40,505 nt of DNA, taken from contig MNDR01000042.1 of NCBI GenBank assembly GCA_001915025.1, positions 1-40,505 of the forward strand, read 5' to 3'. Position 1 is the stretch's first letter, and each line of letters begins with the position of its first letter. Origin of the DNA: Gemmatimonadetes bacterium 13_2_20CM_2_65_7 (GTDB lineage Bacteria; Gemmatimonadota; Gemmatimonadetes; Gemmatimonadales; GWC2-71-9). A program made the position numbers and the translations under genes. Of the stretch, positions 16,665 through 32,342 are shown in pieces. The notes under the pieces were generated by a model that was not told the origin of the DNA, did no database searches, and saw only the letters and a program-made list of their open reading frames with translations.

Positions 16665-17101
16665 AGCGCCGTGCCCTTTCTGGTGTCCAGAAAGTGTTGA
16701 AGGAGCAGGGCGGCCGCCATCGCGTCGAGGTCTGCTTTGCGACCGCGCGTCGATCCGCCCATCTCACGGACGGCCGCCAGCACGCGCGCCGTCGTCATGC
16801 GCTCGTCCCACAGGATCACCTCGCGCGTCGGTCCCACGCGACGTTTGATATCATCGGCGAGGTCCCGCGCGGCGTGAGCCGCATCACCTTCGGCCCCATC
16901 CTCGTTCAGGGGGAGGCCGACGACGATGCCAACCACCTGGTGGCGATCGATTTGCGCGAGCAGCGGCGCCATTGGGAATCGTTTGCCGGCGCGGCGGGTG
17001 AGCGTGGCGAGGGGCTGCGCGAGCGTCTGCGTTTCGTCGGAGAGGGCGAGACCAATGCGGCGTTCGCCCCAATCGACTGCCAGCAGCCGGCCTCGCGTCA
17101 C
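16661..17101 (-). CDS. ruvX: Holliday junction resolvase-like / pre-16S rRNA nuclease YqgF
   Basis: YqgF/RuvX proteins have an RNase H fold and act in 16S rRNA 5' maturation; some resolve Holliday junctions. The 146 residues show the first catalytic Asp in [18 protein letters not shown], the [11 protein letters not shown] strand, a conserved Glu in [14 protein letters not shown], and the final acidic [17 protein letters not shown]. The length is standard. It overlaps rho upstream and mltG downstream by 4 nt each, so rho-ruvX-mltG is one operon. Confidence 0.94.
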
Positions 17102-18357
17102 CCTTGCGACATCGTCTGGAAGAACTCGGTGTTGGTCTTCGTGCGCTTCAGCCGCTCGAGCAGGAACTCGATCGCTTCGACGGGCGGCATGTCGGACAGG
17201 AAGTTGCGCAGCAAGTACACCTTGTTGAGCTCTTCCTTGGTGAGCAACAGCTCTTCCTTACGGGTGCTGGTGCGCTGGACGTCGATCGACGGGAACGTCC
17301 GTCGCTCGGCGATGCGCCGATCGAGAATCACTTCCGAGTTACCGGTGCCCTTGAACTCCTCGAAGATCACCTCGTCCATGCGCGAGCCGGTGTCGATCAG
17401 GGCCGTGGCGAGAATGGTCAGCGAGCCGCCGCCTTCGATGTTGCGCGCTGCGCCGAAGAAGCGTTTTGGCTTCTGTAGGGCATTCGCGTCGACACCGCCT
17501 GAGAGAATCTTGCCCGAATGCGGCACGACGACGTTGTGCGCGCGGCCCAGACGCGTGATCGAATCGAGGAGAATCACGACGTCCTTGCCGTGCTCGACCA
17601 GCCGCTTCGCTTTCTCGATCACCATGTCCGCCACCTGCACGTGCCGGTCGGCCGGTTCGTCGAAGGTCGAGGAGACCACTTCGACGTTCGGCCCCTTCAC
17701 GTTTTCTTCCATGTCGGTCACCTCTTCGGGCCGCTCGTCGATGAGCAGCACGATGAGGTAGACCTCGGGGTGATTCTCGATGATGGAGTTGGCGAGCTTC
17801 TGCATCAGGATGGTCTTACCGGCTTTCGGCGGCGACACGATCAACCCGCGCTGCCCTTTGCCGATCGGTGACAGAATGTCCATGACCCGCATCGACAGAT
17901 CGCCGTCCTTGCGCTCCAACTTGAGCTGCTGTTCGGGATAGCGAGGCCGGAGGTTGTCGAACGCGACGCGGTGTTTGGCCTTCTCTGGCTCCTCGCCGTT
18001 CACGACTTCGACTTTCAGCAGCGCGAGATAGCGCTCGCCTTCCTTCGGCGGCCGCACTTGCCCGGTGATCGTATCGCCGGTGCGCAGATCGAAACGTTTG
18101 ATCTGACTCGGCGAGACGTAGATGTCGTCGGGGCCGTACAGATAGTTCCAATCGGCACTGCGCAGGAAACCATAGCCTTCGGGGAGGATTTCGAGGACGC
18201 CCTCGCCGCGCAGCACGGTGTCGGAGTCGAGCAGCGACTGCTCGATGCGGAAAATGAGATCCTGCTTGCGGAGCCCGGAGTAGTTGGTGATGTTCAGGCT
18301 CTCGGCCATCGCGTGTAGTTCCGCGACGGACTTTCTCTTTAATTCGGCGATATCCAC
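17098..18357 (-). CDS. rho: Transcription termination factor Rho
   Basis: Rho is the hexameric RNA-dependent ATPase that terminates transcription. The 419-residue protein carries, in order, the N-terminal helix-extended-helix domain ([19 protein letters not shown]), the primary RNA-binding cold-shock fold ([31 protein letters not shown]), Walker A (SPPKAGKT), Walker B ([14 protein letters not shown]), the Q-loop region ([20 protein letters not shown]), and the R-loop ([18 protein letters not shown]). It has no long disordered insertion. It is the first gene of the operon with ruvX and mltG, and a good sigma70-type promoter lies about 100 nt upstream. Confidence 0.97.
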
Positions 18358-18461: not shown

Positions 18462-18490
18462 ATAGTAGGCCGTGCCGGGCGGCGCGTCAA
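18462..18490 (-). promoter_or_regulatory. rho: Predicted sigma70-type promoter for rho
   Basis: Read on the minus strand, TTGACG (18490-18485), a 17-nt spacer and TACTAT (18467-18462) form a good -35/-10 pair. Initiation near 18455 would give a leader of about 98 nt before the rho ATG, long enough for the attenuation by Rho itself that is known in other bacteria. The promoter overlaps the 5' end of the plus-strand M50 ORF as annotated from 18472, which argues for a later start of that gene. Confidence 0.5.
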
Positions 18491-19584
18491 GAGTGGCCGT
18501 GACCCTGACGCCATGCCTCCTCGCTTGGCGCACCACCCCCCTTCACGACCGTGAAGTTGTTGATGCGCTTGTAGATCCGGCGCACGCCGGCCCCTCCCCA
18601 GAGCTGGCTTCTGCCCTCCGACAATGGCCGGGGACTTACTACTGGTCCGATGAAGCGGACGGTCGTCACCTCGTCCTCACGCGCCGCACGTACAAGAGTC
18701 GCGAAGCATGGAGCATGCACGCCTTGCTGTTCGCGGCGGTGCTCGTCACGACGACGTTGACCGGCGCGATGCTCGGCGGCGGGATTTCGATGCATCCGAG
18801 CAGCTGGCATGGAGCAACATTCTTTCACGCCTTGTCCCGCGGTCTCCTGTTTTCCCTCCCGCTTCTGGCAATTCTGCTCACCCATGAGCTCGGCCACTAC
18901 ATCACGGCGCGGCGGTACCAGATCAACGTGTCACCGCCCTTTTTTTTGCCGAGTTTTCCCCCGCCGTTCGGCATCGGGACGTTGGGAGCCTTCATTCGGC
19001 TCCGCACGATCGTAAATGACCGGCGGCAGCTGCTGGACATCGGCGCCGCAGGTCCGATCGCCGGTTTCGTCGTCGCCCTCCCCATCCTGTGGATCGGTCT
19101 CTTGCATAGTCATCCGACCTTGGAGCGCGGGCTTCACGGGATGGTGGTGGCGCTAGGCGACGATACTGTGTTACCCGGTGACTCGGTCCTGACCCTGCTG
19201 TTGCGCCGTTTTCTGATTGGACAAGATCAGACCATCGTGCTGCACCCGACCGCGTTCGCCGGTTGGTTCGGGATGTTCGTGACGATGCTCAATCTCCTGC
19301 CGATGGCGCAGCTCGATGGCGGCCACATCATTTACTCGGCGACCACGCGCTGGCACCAGCCAGTTGCCCGCGCCTTCTGGGTCGTCGTGATGCTGCTGGG
19401 ATGGTTCTGGATTGGATGGTTGGTCTGGGGATTCGTCGTCCTGTTGCTGTCGCGCGGTCAGCTGCGACATCCGCCCGTGCTCGACGCCTACCGGCCGCTG
19501 CCTGCCTCGCGCAAATGGCTGCTCTTGGCCAGTCTGGTTCTCTTCATCCTGACCTTCGTGCCGGCACCATTCCGCGCGCCCTGA
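18472..19584 (+). CDS. M50-family (site-2 protease-like) membrane metallopeptidase
   Basis: Site-2 proteases cut substrates inside the membrane. The 370-residue ORF has about eight hydrophobic segments. The zinc motif is in ILLTHELGHYITARRY (HExxH), and the third ligand is in MLNLLPMAQLDGGHIIY (NxxPxxxLDGGH type). LRTIVNDRRQLLDIGAAGPIAGF is the conserved loop. A soluble N-terminal part of about 70 residues precedes the first helix. The start is uncertain: 18472 is a GTG inside the putative rho promoter, and GTGs at 18493 and 18499 are alternatives. The substrate is unknown; no anti-sigma factor is adjacent. Confidence 0.88.
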   Translation: MPGGASRVAVTLTPCLLAWRTTPLHDREVVDALVDPAHAGPSPELASALRQWPGTYYWSDEADGRHLVLTRRTYKSREAWSMHALLFAAVLVTTTLTGAMLGGGISMHPSSWHGATFFHALSRGLLFSLPLLAILLTHELGHYITARRYQINVSPPFFLPSFPPPFGIGTLGAFIRLRTIVNDRRQLLDIGAAGPIAGFVVALPILWIGLLHSHPTLERGLHGMVVALGDDTVLPGDSVLTLLLRRFLIGQDQTIVLHPTAFAGWFGMFVTMLNLLPMAQLDGGHIIYSATTRWHQPVARAFWVVVMLLGWFWIGWLVWGFVVLLLSRGQLRHPPVLDAYRPLPASRKWLLLASLVLFILTFVPAPFRAP

Positions 19585-19608
19585 GCTATTGCGTAACTCC
19601 AAGCCATT

Positions 19609-19614
19609 TATAAT
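19609..19614 (+). promoter_or_regulatory. Possible -10 element before the 96-aa gene
   Basis: A perfect TATAAT lies 27 nt before the ATG at 19642, in the 57-nt gap after the M50 gene. The matching -35 region (around CTATTG or TTGCGT) is poor, so the assignment rests mainly on the -10 box and on its position. Confidence 0.4.
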
Positions 19615-19641: not shown

Positions 19642-19932
19642 ATGCCTGGCCAACCTGTCCGATATACGCCGCCCGCAGCTGCTGCGACCGATACGGTCGT
19701 CCACGACCTGCCCCCGATTCGCTTCGACGGACAACCCATAGACATCCGACTCTCCCTGCGCCGCTCCGATGATGGTATCTGGCGTGGCCGCATATTGTTC
19801 GGTGCTGAAGGCACGGAGGCGGAGCGCTCCAGCGCCGAGATCTTCTGCGCCGCGTCGGAGCAGGACTTGTGGCAGTCGGTGCGGGACCTGCGGGATCACC
19901 ACCTGCGTGACCTCTATCGTTCGTTGCTTTGA
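19642..19932 (+). CDS. 96-aa hypothetical protein
   Basis: I do not recognise a family. The protein starts with a Pro/Ala-rich leader (MPGQPVRYTPPAAAATDT). It then has a small alpha/beta-looking core with alternating strands (IRFDGQPIDIRLSLRRSDDG, IWRGRILFGAEGTEAERSS) and an amphipathic C-terminal helix (DLWQSVRDLRDHHLRDLYRSLL). There is no signal peptide or membrane segment, so it is probably cytoplasmic. Its TGA overlaps the ATG of the next small gene (TGATG), so the two products are likely made together and may interact with each other. Confidence 0.65.
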   Translation: MPGQPVRYTPPAAAATDTVVHDLPPIRFDGQPIDIRLSLRRSDDGIWRGRILFGAEGTEAERSSAEIFCAASEQDLWQSVRDLRDHHLRDLYRSLL

Positions 19933-20123
19933 TGGCTGATCCGAAGGGGGGAGGGCTGTCCAAGCTGCGGCACGACCTCTCCAATCCTCTGTCGGCTATT
20001 CTCGCCGAGACTCAGCTCCTGCTCCTCACGCCTGAGAAACACGATGAGGAGACGCTGGCCGGTCTCAAACAAATCGAGGACCTGGCGCGCACGATGCGTC
20101 AGATGCTACAAAGCCTCACGTGA
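19932..20123 (+). CDS. Stand-alone histidine-kinase dimerisation (HisKA-like) domain protein, 63 aa
   Basis: The protein consists almost only of a two-helix HisKA-type domain. The first helix contains an H-box-like motif LRHDLSNPLSAILAETQLLL with the candidate phospho-accepting His and the conserved N-P pair. The second helix is ETLAGLKQIEDLARTMRQMLQ. No HATPase domain or receiver follows. The ORF track uses a TTG at 19929, but the ATG at 19932 overlaps the preceding stop and is the better start. It might act as a phosphotransfer partner, a decoy or dimerisation subunit for a full kinase, or be the remnant of one. No intact kinase is within the window. Confidence 0.6.
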   Translation: MADPKGGGLSKLRHDLSNPLSAILAETQLLLLTPEKHDEETLAGLKQIEDLARTMRQMLQSLT

Positions 20124-20288
20124 GTCGGCGGCATCGCCCTCGGTATTGCCCTCCCACCGCATGGTGGCCTCCTCGCTTTATCAGTCGCTGGGCCAGACCC
20201 GTCGCTTTCCTTATTAAGCATTCGCCGCGGAAGTGGCGCAGGTGAGCCGTGTCATAGCGCCCCCGGTCAGACAACCGTAAGAATCAAT

Positions 20289-20320
20289 CCCCTTGCGCGA
20301 GGTTGACGCAGGGGCATTTT
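20289..20320 (+). terminator. Probable Rho-independent terminator after the small HisKA gene
   Basis: CCCCTTGCG pairs with CGCAGGGG (one bulged base) around a 9-nt loop, followed by CATTTT. The T-run is short. It would end the 19642-20123 transcript and separate it from the 20352 locus. The remaining sequence from 20124 to 20288 contains no gene I can support. Confidence 0.45.
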
Positions 20321-20351: not shown

Positions 20352-21662
20352 TTGGCTGGTCGCAGGCGCCTGCTCTTAACGATGAGCGGTCTGGTTGTGG
20401 CTTGCGCTGGCGGGCCACGAACCGGACCTGTCACCCCGGCAGAAATCCCCGCCCTCAAAGCCCAAGCAGCACAGCAACCCCGCAACGCTCAGATCCAATT
20501 CCGACTCGCCGCCGCCCTCATGGCCGTGGGGCGGTGCGATACGGCCGTGGTCGTCGCGAAAGCCGGTCAGATGTTGGCCCCCGGCGAGGCCCTCGGCGCC
20601 ATGGTGATCGGCGGCTGTCAGGAGAAAGACGAGGGGGGGCGTTACGACCTCGCCTACGCGACCTACACGGACTTCGCCAACCGCTATCCGCAAGCCCGTG
20701 GCGTAGCGGCGGTTCGGGCACTCGGACAGCTCGCTCTTCGGACCCAAGCCACCCAGACGGCAAAGCTCGCGCTCGCCCGCGAGTCGACGCTCACCCCACA
20801 GGCTCCTGAGCCGTCGACGCTGGCGATCCTGCCGGTGACGATCGCCGGGGATTCGAGCCTTCAGCCGCTGTCGCGGGGACTGGCTGAAATGCTGACATCG
20901 GATTTGGCGATGGTGCGCAGTCTCCGGTTGCTCGAACGCATGCAGATTGGAACGCTGCTCGACGAGCTGAAACTCGCCCAAAGTGCCCGATCCGATCCCG
21001 CAACAGCCGCACGCGTGGGGCGATTGCTGCGGGCCGAGCGGATGGTACAGGGCGTCGCGGCCATTACAGAGAACGGGCCAGTGCGGATGTCGGCGACGGT
21101 CGTACGCGGCGACGGCACCGTGCGGTCCGGCGCGCAAGCCAACGGCACGTTCAAGCAGCTGCTCGAGCTCGAGAAGCAGCTCGTCTTCGGCCTCGCGACG
21201 CAGCTCGGCATCCAACTGACCGATGCCGAGCGGCAGCGAATCTTGCGCCAAGGTCCGAAGAACCTCGCAGCGTTCCTCGCGTACAGCCGGGGACTCGAGG
21301 CGTTGGATCGCGGTGATTACCGCGCCGCGGCTGCCGCGTTCGGCGCCGCCGTGCGCGCCGATCCGTCATTCCAGGCGGCCCAGCAACAACAGCAGGCGGC
21401 CGCCGCCGCGCCCGCGGTGCAGGCGTCGCCGGGCGATGTCGTGACGGTCGTCGAAGCGGTGGCGCAGCTCACGACGCCGACCGAGCCGGCCTCGGTGGGT
21501 GTGTTGCAGCAGACCACTGTAGACGTGTCGCAGATCGGCGCGGACATCACTCCGCAGACCGGAGCTCAGAGCACCGTGAGTCACCCGACGCCCGAGAGTC
21601 AGGGCATTTCGAACATCGGACAAGTGACTGGCGTGTTACGGATCATCTTCAAGCGGCCATGA
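20352..21662 (+). CDS. CsgG/FlgO-like lipoprotein with TPR-like segments
   Basis: Starting at TTG 20352 (GGGAG upstream) the product is 436 residues and begins MAGRRRLLLTMSGLVVACAGG, a lipoprotein signal with the lipidated Cys at 18; the ATG at 20382 would lose the positive n-region. A helical repeat region (ALKAQAAQQPRNAQIQFRLAAAL and following) resembles TPRs. The central part (STLAILPVTIAGDSSLQPLSRGLAEMLTSDLAM, LLERMQIGTLLDELKLAQ, RVGRLLRAERMVQGV) follows the CsgG/FlgO-type periplasmic fold, and another TPR-like repeat follows (AFLAYSRGLEALDRGDYRAAAAAF). CsgG itself is the curli secretion pore; here a pore is not shown. It overlaps the following barrel gene by 4 nt and probably heads the surface-protein operon. 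Confidence 0.72.
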   Translation: MAGRRRLLLTMSGLVVACAGGPRTGPVTPAEIPALKAQAAQQPRNAQIQFRLAAALMAVGRCDTAVVVAKAGQMLAPGEALGAMVIGGCQEKDEGGRYDLAYATYTDFANRYPQARGVAAVRALGQLALRTQATQTAKLALARESTLTPQAPEPSTLAILPVTIAGDSSLQPLSRGLAEMLTSDLAMVRSLRLLERMQIGTLLDELKLAQSARSDPATAARVGRLLRAERMVQGVAAITENGPVRMSATVVRGDGTVRSGAQANGTFKQLLELEKQLVFGLATQLGIQLTDAERQRILRQGPKNLAAFLAYSRGLEALDRGDYRAAAAAFGAAVRADPSFQAAQQQQQAAAAAPAVQASPGDVVTVVEAVAQLTTPTEPASVGVLQQTTVDVSQIGADITPQTGAQSTVSHPTPESQGISNIGQVTGVLRIIFKRP

Positions 21663-29117: not shown

Positions 29118-30629
29118 ATGAAGCGTTTTAGTTTGCTGCTGGTCGGCGCAGGAGTGCTGGTGGGATGTGGCGGCGGTGACGGAGGAGGTGGTGGTCCGCC
29201 CACGATTACGTCGGTCGTCGTTAGCGGCGATTCGACCGTCTTCTTGAACGGCACCCGCCAGCTGACCGCTACCGCGAAATCGGGGACCACGACCGTGACT
29301 AACGGCGTCACGTTCGAGTGGGTGTCCGCCGACACCACTCGCGCGGTCGTGTCGGCCAGCGGCCTCGTATCCGGTGTCCGGTTAGGCGCGACGGACATCA
29401 CGGCGCGCGCGGTGGTGAACGGGACACCGACATCCGTCACCAGCTCCGCGCACCCGGTCCGCGTACGCATCGCCGCTATCGTCGTGACGCCAGTGAGTCC
29501 TGCGGCGCTCAATTTCGTGGGTGACACGCAGCGCTTTGCCGGCGAGCCGCGCGACGCCCAGGGCGTGGCCGTTCCCGGACTCACGATCACCTGGTCCTCG
29601 ACGGACACGGCATTGGCGATTGCCGCAAGCGGCCTCGCGACGGCAGTGCGCCGTACGAACGCGGGTGGACGCAACGTGCGTGTACGCGCGACGACGGACG
29701 GCGTCACCGACTCGAGCGTCCAGATCCTCGTGCGCCAGATCCCCGTTGCCGTGCATCTGAACCCGAGCACCTTCCCGACACTCGCGTCGCTTGGTCAAAG
29801 CGTGAACGCGGCATGCGTGGTGCTCGACTCCGCGAACGACACCATCCCCAATCATTCGTGCGGCTGGTCCATCACCGGGACCGACAGCGGCGTCGTCACC
29901 TTCAGCACGAACAACGCCCCCGCGACGCGCATCACCGGGCGCAAGAATGGCGACGCCAACATCCAGGCCACGGCGTTTGCCAGCATTTTCGCGCCGAATT
30001 TCATTCAGGTCAGGCAGGCGGCCGCGCGCGTGGTGCTTCACCCCACGACGCTCGATACGTCACAAATCGTTGTGAACGACTCGATGCGGTTCATCGATTC
30101 AGTGTTCGATGCGAATGACTCGCTGCTGAGCGCGCCACCGGCGGCCATCGTCTGGTCGTCCACCACGTCTTCCGCCACCGTGGATGCCAACGGCCACGTG
30201 ACGGCCGGCTCCGGCGCGGGCGCGACTTTCATCGTGGCAACGAGCGGCACGTCGAAGGACAGCGCGCTGGTGGTCATCGTTCCGGCCGCCAACGCGAGGA
30301 CGTTGAGCGGAGACGTACAGCCGATTTTTAGCCTGAACTGCGCCAGTTGTCACGACGGCGTCGGCACGTCGTTACCAGGCGTGCAGGACTTAACGGCGGG
30401 TCACTCGTTCGCGAGCATCGTGAACCATGCTGCGATTCAATCTGCCCTCAAGCGAGTACTTCCTTCGGTTCCCGATTCGTCCTACCTGGTGCACAAGATC
30501 CAGGGAACGAATCTCTTACCGCCCGCGAGGGGTTCCGGAGCGCGCATGCCGCTGAACGGAAATCCACTGAGCCGCGGCCAGATCAACACGATCCGTAACT
30601 GGATTCTGCAGGGTGCGAAAAACAACTAA
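29118..30629 (+). CDS. Ig-like domain lipoprotein with C-terminal CXXCH haem-binding module
   Basis: The 503-residue product follows a strong GGGGGG ribosome site 18 nt after the repeat gene. It has a lipoprotein signal (MKRFSLLLVGAGVLVGC, then a Gly-rich spacer). At least three BIG2/Ig-like domains follow (SVVVSGDSTVFLNGTRQLTA; IVVTPVSPAALNFVGDTQRF; VVLHPTTLDTSQIVVNDSMRF). The last 110 residues contain LSGDVQPIFSLNCASCHDG, a single c-type haem motif, with later GSGARMPLNGNPLSRGQ where Met could be the axial ligand; this resembles the c-type domain of planctomycete-type surface cytochromes. An electron-transfer role at the cell surface is possible but inferred. It is most likely in the operon of the giant repeat protein. 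Confidence 0.82.
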   Translation: MKRFSLLLVGAGVLVGCGGGDGGGGGPPTITSVVVSGDSTVFLNGTRQLTATAKSGTTTVTNGVTFEWVSADTTRAVVSASGLVSGVRLGATDITARAVVNGTPTSVTSSAHPVRVRIAAIVVTPVSPAALNFVGDTQRFAGEPRDAQGVAVPGLTITWSSTDTALAIAASGLATAVRRTNAGGRNVRVRATTDGVTDSSVQILVRQIPVAVHLNPSTFPTLASLGQSVNAACVVLDSANDTIPNHSCGWSITGTDSGVVTFSTNNAPATRITGRKNGDANIQATAFASIFAPNFIQVRQAAARVVLHPTTLDTSQIVVNDSMRFIDSVFDANDSLLSAPPAAIVWSSTTSSATVDANGHVTAGSGAGATFIVATSGTSKDSALVVIVPAANARTLSGDVQPIFSLNCASCHDGVGTSLPGVQDLTAGHSFASIVNHAAIQSALKRVLPSVPDSSYLVHKIQGTNLLPPARGSGARMPLNGNPLSRGQINTIRNWILQGAKNN

Positions 30630-31612
30630 GCGCGCTTGAGGTAGCGCCGGCCGCGGAGGAGATAGAGGAAAAGGAAAACCACCGTGAGGGCGCTGACGCC
30701 GTATTTCCACACCGCACTGGCGTCAGACGTCGACAATAAGCCCTCGATCGTGCCGGCGATCGCGAGCAATGTCACGACCGCGCCGAGCATGCGCGCGGCG
30801 ATCCGCCCCTCGAGGACGAGCGCGTCTTTGCGCGTGCGATCGCCGGGCGCAATCAGCGCCTTTGCCAAACGGAATCCCGCTCCAGCCGAAATAAATATCG
30901 CCGTCAGCTCGAGCACTCCGTGGCCAACGACGAATGTGACGAGATAGCTCAGCGCGTTGTAGTTCTTGAATAGCCCCAGGCCGAGCCCGAGCATCATCCC
31001 GTTGGCGAAGAGCAGCCAGGCTGTGAGCAGCCCACCCGTCATCCCACCGACGAACACGCCGAACGAGACTTGGATGTTGTTGGTGATGATGGCGGCCGCG
31101 ATAACAGGTCGCTCTTCCCCCGGTGCTTCGGCATAGCCGCGTCCCTCCGCCGTTCGCTCCGCAGCCTGTTCGGCACGCCTGACCATGACGGGCGGCACGA
31201 TTTCTTCGGCGAGCGACGGCCGCTCCCGAATCATGACGTAGCCCACAGTGGCGGGAATCGTGAACAGCAGAAACGCGAGCAAGACGTATTGCCACGACGC
31301 GACGACGGCCGCCGGGAAGTCGTACAGGATGTAGTGTAGCAACGGGGTGTGCTCTCTGCCGCGCGCGCGATACAGCGCGTTGTGTCCCGCGCTGACCACG
31401 CGCTCGAGATAATCGATGACGCGCGGATCGACCTGATAGGTCCGAGCACGGGCCAGATCCGCTGCCACTTCGCGGTATTGCGCCGCGAACGCGGGAATCT
31501 CGCCGGCGGACAATGCGCCGACCCCGGAGCGCTCCATGCGGAGCGCGGTTTCACGGAACGACTCCCAGCCGCTTCGTTTCTTCTCGACGAATCGCTCCGC
31601 GGGCACACTCAT
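30626..31612 (-). CDS. SpoIIM-family (DUF95) integral membrane protein
   Basis: SpoIIM/DUF95 proteins are multi-pass membrane proteins; the founding member acts in Bacillus engulfment, while homologues in non-sporulating bacteria sit beside RDD and MoxR genes and have no settled role. Starting at the ATG at 31612 the protein is 328 residues and opens with the family motif MSVPAERFVEKKRSGWESF and YREVAADLARARTY. Several membrane segments follow, including IQVSFGVFVGGMTGGLLTAWLLFANGMMLG and FVVGHGVLELTAIFISAGAGF, the latter being the most conserved DUF95 block. The ORF track extends the frame upstream to 31918, but that part belongs to the RDD protein tail. The 3' end overlaps the convergent Ig/haem lipoprotein gene by 4 nt. 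Confidence 0.85.
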   Translation of the reverse strand: MSVPAERFVEKKRSGWESFRETALRMERSGVGALSAGEIPAFAAQYREVAADLARARTYQVDPRVIDYLERVVSAGHNALYRARGREHTPLLHYILYDFPAAVVASWQYVLLAFLLFTIPATVGYVMIRERPSLAEEIVPPVMVRRAEQAAERTAEGRGYAEAPGEERPVIAAAIITNNIQVSFGVFVGGMTGGLLTAWLLFANGMMLGLGLGLFKNYNALSYLVTFVVGHGVLELTAIFISAGAGFRLAKALIAPGDRTRKDALVLEGRIAARMLGAVVTLLAIAGTIEGLLSTSDASAVWKYGVSALTVVFLFLYLLRGRRYLKRA

Positions 31613-32342
31613 GCGACCGGCGGCACCGGCCTGTGGTCGGGCCGCAAAACGGCTCCGCCGCTTACGCTGCTCCTCCGCGAACACCGTGACGAGATACGCC
31701 TCCGGGTCCGCGTTGCGGCGCGGAATCCGGCCCTCGAATCGCCGCACGAAATCAGCGGTAATGCGAACCTGCACTTCGGGCGCCAGCTCGTTCAGCCGTC
31801 CCAGGAACCGGTCCAGCAGTCTGAACTCCTGCTCCGAGAGCTGGGGCGGCCCTGTCTCGAGTGGCTCGTCAGCCGGTTGCGTCGCTGCTCCAGTCTGCAG
31901 AGCCGCCCCCCCCCCCAACGTCCAATCCGTTGGCCGATCACGAACGACGATCGTCCCCGCCGCTATGTCGCCCGGCCGCTTGTTGCTTCGGTGGAGGAAG
32001 ATCGTCAGCAGCGCAGGAAGGAGCGGCGGCCAACGCCTGCTTGCCGGGGGTGCGGCCGCCGTTCAGCGCCTCGAACAGCGTGAAGTAGCCCCACACCAGG
32101 AAGAAGACCAGCAGCAGCATGAGCGCGGCCAGCCAGCCGCGCGCCGTTTTTCCTGTCTGCCCGACGACTGCGTCAAAAACCAACGCGAGCATGAGCAAGG
32201 CGAGCAACATGAAGAGAAGATCGAGCAACGCCGCCGCTAGGCGGGAGCCGATGCCGGCCAATTCAAAGTGGACGTCGACGTGCTCCGGCGTTTCGACGCC
32301 GTGGCGTTGCCGGAGATCGAGGTCTCGCGCGGAAGGCTGCAC
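31613..32342 (-). pseudogene. RDD-family membrane protein, internally deleted and frame-disrupted
   Basis: A GTG at 32342 (GAGG upstream) opens a frame with VETPEHVDVHFELAGIGSRLAAALLD and two membrane segments up to LFEALNGGRTPGKQAL, the standard RDD start. In another frame, LPALLTIFLHRSNKRPGD and AAGTIVVRDRPTDWTL supply the end of the RDD domain. The central RDD block that normally lies between GKQAL and the last helix (about 30-37 residues) is missing, with a net frame change of 2 mod 3; the junction is near 32020-32032. The tail then passes through an 11-G run and a conserved-looking helical extension (LSEQEFRLLDRFLGRLNELA to AEEQRKRRSRFAARPQ) and runs in frame, with no stop, into the SpoIIM start. 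Confidence 0.75.

Follow-up and report, generated by a model that had tools for sequence, protein, structure and literature searches.

A putative stand-alone DHp protein encoded with a small candidate accessory protein at a conserved site in Gemmatimonadota

Spo0B, a DHp-type His carrier, keeps a degenerate ATPase-like domain. The same is true of ChpT (PMC3433190) and PhyT (PMC5898713), both of which are DHp-type His carriers that do not autophosphorylate. A review that covers clostridial phosphotransfer proteins describes them as kinase-like and as acting as Spo0A phosphatases, and entries in its table carry a HATPase domain (PMC11210211). HPt proteins (PF01627) are His phosphotransfer proteins, small and all-helical, without an ATPase domain. 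Kinase activity of HisKA proteins, but not phosphatase activity, depends on the acid that follows the His; for the T/N at H+4 the reverse holds, and the NtrB or EnvZ DHp by itself leads to a phosphatase phenotype (PMC3510030). Artificial isolated DHp domains show phosphatase activity (PMC3510030), and isolated DHp domains have been studied as laboratory constructs; among the open-access papers searched, none describes a naturally stand-alone DHp family.

The locus described here lies in a window of 40,505 nt, the whole stretch of DNA that was analysed, from Gemmatimonadetes bacterium 13_2_20CM_2_65_7 (contig MNDR01000042.1). Its relevant features are as follows.

17098-18357, minus strand: rho, divergent conserved neighbour and marker of the syntenic site
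18472-19584, plus strand: M50 metalloprotease gene, upstream conserved neighbour (Pfam M50, E=9e-23)
19589-19614, plus strand: promoter of the pair, TTGCGTAA at 19589-19596 and TATAAT at 19609-19614 (phylogenetic footprint)
19642-19932, plus strand: ORF1, 96 aa, a family of unknown fold
19932-20123, plus strand: ORF2, 63 aa, a stand-alone HisKA/DHp domain (Pfam, AlphaFold, alignment of 42)
20287-20318 (about), plus strand: possible terminator hairpin, weak, then CATTTT

ORF1 and ORF2 overlap by one base in the sequence TGATG, the ORF1 stop TGA occupying 19930-19932 and the ORF2 start ATG 19932-19934. The first-pass annotation had described an orphan HisKA domain coupled in this way to a small partner, and both Pfam and the ORF coordinates agree with it. 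Residues 9-62 of ORF2 match Pfam HisKA (PF00512) with E=7e-7 and 29.6 bits, against a curated cut-off of 26.9, and the stop codon follows 1-2 residues past the domain; as that annotation also held, no ATPase domain is present, since the Pfam scan of ORF2 gives HisKA only and no HATPase. The AlphaFold monomer model (pLDDT 90) places helices at residues 8-31 and 39-61 as a two-helix hairpin. The motif HDLSNPL supplies the phospho-acceptor His14, Asp15, Asn18, and Pro19, that is, the phospho-His followed by an acid, with T/N-P at +4/+5, by which HisKA/DHp domains are recognised. In a PDB fold search, the DHp domains of kinases, RetS-GacS and ERS1 among them, rank first for this model; no E-value is <0.001, as is expected for 60 residues, and a search of the ORF2 profile against PDB sequences gave no match at E 0.01. 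Among the 26 HisKA matches in its own genome, ORF2 is the sole one in an open frame <395 aa.

These properties set ORF2 beside, and apart from, the described systems. It shares with the isolated DHp of EnvZ and NtrB the two-helix hairpin, the H-D-x-x-N-P box, and a similar length (about that of the EnvZ DHp), but in ORF2 the domain makes up the entire natural protein, and many species encode it with no ATPase domain. Lacking a HATPase (CA) domain after the DHp, ORF2 is no histidine kinase. It resembles ChpT, Spo0B, and PhyT as DHp-type His carriers that do not autophosphorylate, yet it lacks their second domain and so is not of that type; the HATPase domain of the tabulated clostridial Spo0A phosphatases is likewise absent from ORF2. 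Unlike the HPt proteins, ORF2 matches HisKA and not Hpt: it has no match to PF01627 in a Pfam scan at E up to 1 and is not among the Hpt matches of its own genome, in which no stand-alone HPt exceeds the cut-off. Because ORF2 is predicted to be a hairpin, a helical bundle would require a dimer. With somewhat better than even confidence, we propose that ORF2, a DHp occurring naturally on its own, takes phosphate off the receivers of response regulators or exchanges it with them, and that ORF1 is its accessory; the activity and the target are drawn from the comparisons below.

The pair is conserved well beyond this genome. Matches to ORF1 were found by tblastn in 34 of 61 related genomes, and ORF2 lies directly after ORF1 in most of the 30 loci fetched from this set. 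A scan of one genome per species in GTDB r220 gave 53 ORF1 loci, the titles of which are nearly all Gemmatimonadota, Gemmatimonadetes, or Gemmatimonadales, with no other phylum named. The first-pass annotation had proposed looking for the same pair in related genomes, and ORF2 follows ORF1 as a free-standing frame of 60-67 aa in 51 of the 53 loci, its start -8 to +8 nt from the ORF1 stop; the two exceptions, L079 and L096, have no ORF2 frame after ORF1. The site is syntenic, with YqgF and rho on one strand and the M50 protease, ORF1, and ORF2 on the other. The M50 protease is missing in some relatives, and the genes 3′ of ORF2 differ between relatives. Either a CsgG-like/TPR gene or a SpoIIM-like gene lies downstream of ORF2 among them; in the window, the former is downstream (20352-21662) and the latter is found 10 kb from the ORF2 site (30626-31918).

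Codon comparison gives dN/dS of 0.05-0.13 for ORF1 and 0.07-0.27 for ORF2, and purifying selection acts on both genes. We looked for homologues confined to longer kinases, the outcome that would have indicated truncation here, and found free-standing ones. That the locus is a decaying remnant of a truncated kinase accompanied by a chance ORF would account for a DHp domain being the sole part left, but the domain is free-standing in dozens of species, dN/dS spans only 0.05-0.27, and the start overlap, the synteny, and the promoter are all conserved. The conservation data refute this reading, which we regard as scarcely credible, and the earlier judgement that the pair is not debris holds, the pair, its synteny, its promoter, and its short length being conserved in dozens of genomes.

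The element TTGCGTAA-N-TATA precedes ORF1 in 42 of the 53 loci versus 1 of 2034 control windows, and its distance to ORF1 is 51-56 nt in nearly all of the 42. The -10 part in relatives reads TATATTTG or TATCTTTG, which we take to resemble the TAnnTTTG element of Bacteroidota promoters. A longer form of the promoter pattern has a single occurrence in the own genome, and a generic sigma-70 scan called no promoter upstream of ORF1. The conserved footprint upholds the promoter-like -10 that had been suggested for the pair; the terminator suggested along with it is uncertain, as the hairpin at about 20287-20318, 165 nt after ORF2, is weak (-14 kcal/mol, z -1.95) and a terminator scan found none there. 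We note that the bases CAAACCAGC downstream of the promoter are also conserved, both in the window and upstream of ORF1 in L051-L103. At one locus, L060, a fragment of ORF2-like sequence about 30-100 nt upstream of ORF1 replaces the -35 part of the promoter; it may be a duplication remnant or an assembly fault.

ORF1 is modelled as four strands followed by two helices (AlphaFold, pLDDT 83), and its conserved residues are W47 R48, E73, W77, L83 R84, H86 H87, and R89-S94. Its sequence has no match in Pfam (above cut-off), NCBIfam, PHROG, or PDB, and comparison of its fold with the PDB returned nothing better than E 0.2, in keeping with the initial description of a 96-residue partner of unknown fold. 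No match to an ATPase-like fold of the ChpT/PhyT type was detectable in ORF1. A PAS identity was considered and set aside, the weak match (E=0.08) not being counted as evidence. Remote relatives of ORF1 occur in the f5 and f9 groups, away from the DHp genes and none with a Pfam family; in L114-L123, remote ORF1-like domains stand singly or end longer frames, often two per locus, again with no Pfam family.

The two genes are separable. In about 20 genomes of the same family, ORF2 is found without ORF1 and is therefore independent of it; several of these genomes have the ORF2 gene about 10-60 nt after the M50 gene. Conversely, ORF1 occurs without detectable ORF2 at three loci (L079, L096, and L107). 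ORF1 is probably a dispensable accessory protein, and the earlier term "module" fails if it is taken to mean an obligate two-protein unit. Two small overlapping genes under one promoter might recall a toxin-antitoxin-like or other unit whose two proteins, ORF1 and ORF2, function only jointly, but this pair is single copy, strictly syntenic, and apparently vertical, and genes that such a unit would keep always together are here separated in both directions. On conservation and separability we reject this reading, which is very improbable.

To place ORF2 in a wider family, relatives were gathered by an ORF2 profile search of 346 Gemmatimonadota genomes, which returned them in other families of the class as well. 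The fetched relatives have no ATPase domain, except for a few ordinary kinases among the weakest matches, and the ATPase-less ones consist of DHp alone or of DHp joined to a receiver-like domain (pseudoREC) or to a membrane region. The last arrangement is seen in L174 (3960-4634), L175 (4409-5122), and L176 (4034-4771), which encode membrane proteins of about 225-245 aa with a C-terminal DHp and no ATPase; the gene in L174 is near a REC-only gene.

The 126 unique ATPase-less homologues have short tails; 125 of them retain the phospho-His and 123 the H+4 Asn, but only 100 the H+1 acid, which the other 26 have lost. Among full kinases from four f1 genomes, 27 of 27 retain this acid. The residue pattern fits a putative phosphatase or phosphate carrier that has given up autophosphorylation. 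Asp15 is present in the window protein and retained in most of its closest orthologues, so the argument from loss of the acid rests on the wider family. The retained acid would also suit a split kinase, in which the ATPase domain of another kinase phosphorylates His14 of ORF2 in trans and ORF2, as a phospho-His carrier standing free, then donates to a regulator, and HATPase domains are plentiful in these genomes (33 matches in the own genome). Of those 33, a single one occupies a short open frame, which lies at a contig end, and none stood out as a clear and complete ATPase domain standing alone; nor is a dedicated HATPase-only partner adjacent to the pair. As the autokinase acid, and not the H+4 Asn, is what 26 of the 126 family members have lost, we consider a split kinase quite unlikely.

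In a tree built on about 57 columns, one side comprises 31 of the 32 kinase-labelled rows (some duplicated) and the other the ATPase-less proteins with L111, a clustering that is partly expected because the relatives were picked by ORF2 similarity (about 55 columns). The ATPase-less part roughly tracks taxonomy. L111 (5006-5947, minus strand) is a REC-DHp-REC protein without an ATPase domain, and is the one long-tailed row inside the ATPase-less group.

Reading ORF2 as a phosphatase or phosphate-transfer protein is favoured by the ATPase-less relatives that lie in operons with response regulators. In f5, the receiver-like-DHp gene is the first of an operon that also encodes a PilS-like kinase and a regulator of the PilR/NtrC type (L132, L194, and L196); seven further loci (L191, L193, L195, L199, L200, L203, and L204) have a REC in the same orientation at the same distance, 1.7-1.9 kb. 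In f9, the receiver-like-DHp gene directly precedes the gene for a REC-HD-GYP protein (L130, L131, and L202); the names PilS, PilR, and HD-GYP were assigned from sequence inspection and not from a family search. Most f2 loci encode a REC-only protein 1.2-2.7 kb upstream, in the same orientation. None of the ORF1-ORF2 loci has a receiver gene within 4 kb (0 of 59, several of the loci being short), and the site itself therefore points to no partner. Descent of ORF2 from the DHp gene of the PilS-PilR operon, which would involve relocation, was also considered and not adopted; in f1 genomes, PilS-PilR is present at the pil locus and the DHp gene is not.

The first-pass annotation had offered phosphotransfer or kinase interference as the role of the protein. 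The former gains from the near-invariant His and H+4 Asn and from the regulator operons of the distant relatives. Under interference, full kinases would be blocked by pairing with ORF2 in mixed dimers, and ORF2 would have no chemistry of its own; a bare DHp keeps the dimer interface, and the closest fold match of ORF2 is the RetS-GacS DHp complex. Nevertheless, the conservation of His (125/126) and Asn (123/126) would not be needed for this, and the closest relatives of the domain are mostly ATPase-less proteins rather than kinases. We regard interference as unlikely, and less favoured than phosphotransfer because pure heterodimer interference would not need the His. One point against the phosphatase or transfer reading is that a pure phosphatase has no obvious need of an invariant His.

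As we picture the phosphatase or transfer reading, ORF2 would dimerise into a four-helix bundle, with receiver domains docking on helix 1. The dimer could then remove the receiver phosphate, Asn18 positioning a water, and/or His14 could take up phosphate and hand it on. Self-phosphorylation would be impossible because there is no ATPase domain. ORF1, made from the same message, may modulate or target ORF2.

More tentatively, and with confidence that falls somewhat short of even, we suggest that Gemmatimonadota possess a class-wide, mostly vertical family of ATPase-less DHp proteins (DHp alone, pseudoREC-DHp, membrane-DHp, and REC-DHp-REC) that may constitute a third component of two-component systems, with the window ORF2 among its smallest natural members, a free response-regulator phosphatase/phosphotransferase tuned by the new ORF1 family. 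A natural, selected, free-standing DHp would demonstrate that evolution can divide the kinase core and leave a phosphatase or phosphate carrier without the kinase. Genes of 63 aa such as ORF2 are easily missed or labelled as kinase fragments. The relatives in operons, with their PilS-PilR-like and REC-HD-GYP neighbours, provide directly testable targets and suggest an extra layer of control on two-component signalling in an under-studied phylum.

Two further observations concern the neighbours of the DHp genes. In f2, a second rho paralogue with 47-51% identity to the rho of the window lies near the DHp gene (L109, L110, L133, L135-L139, and L143), and each of four f2 genomes examined has its main rho at a different site, while the DHp gene of f1 and f3 sits beside the main rho. 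In f4 (L140 and L141), a stand-alone DHp gene adjoins a gene for glycine cleavage H protein, named by eye.
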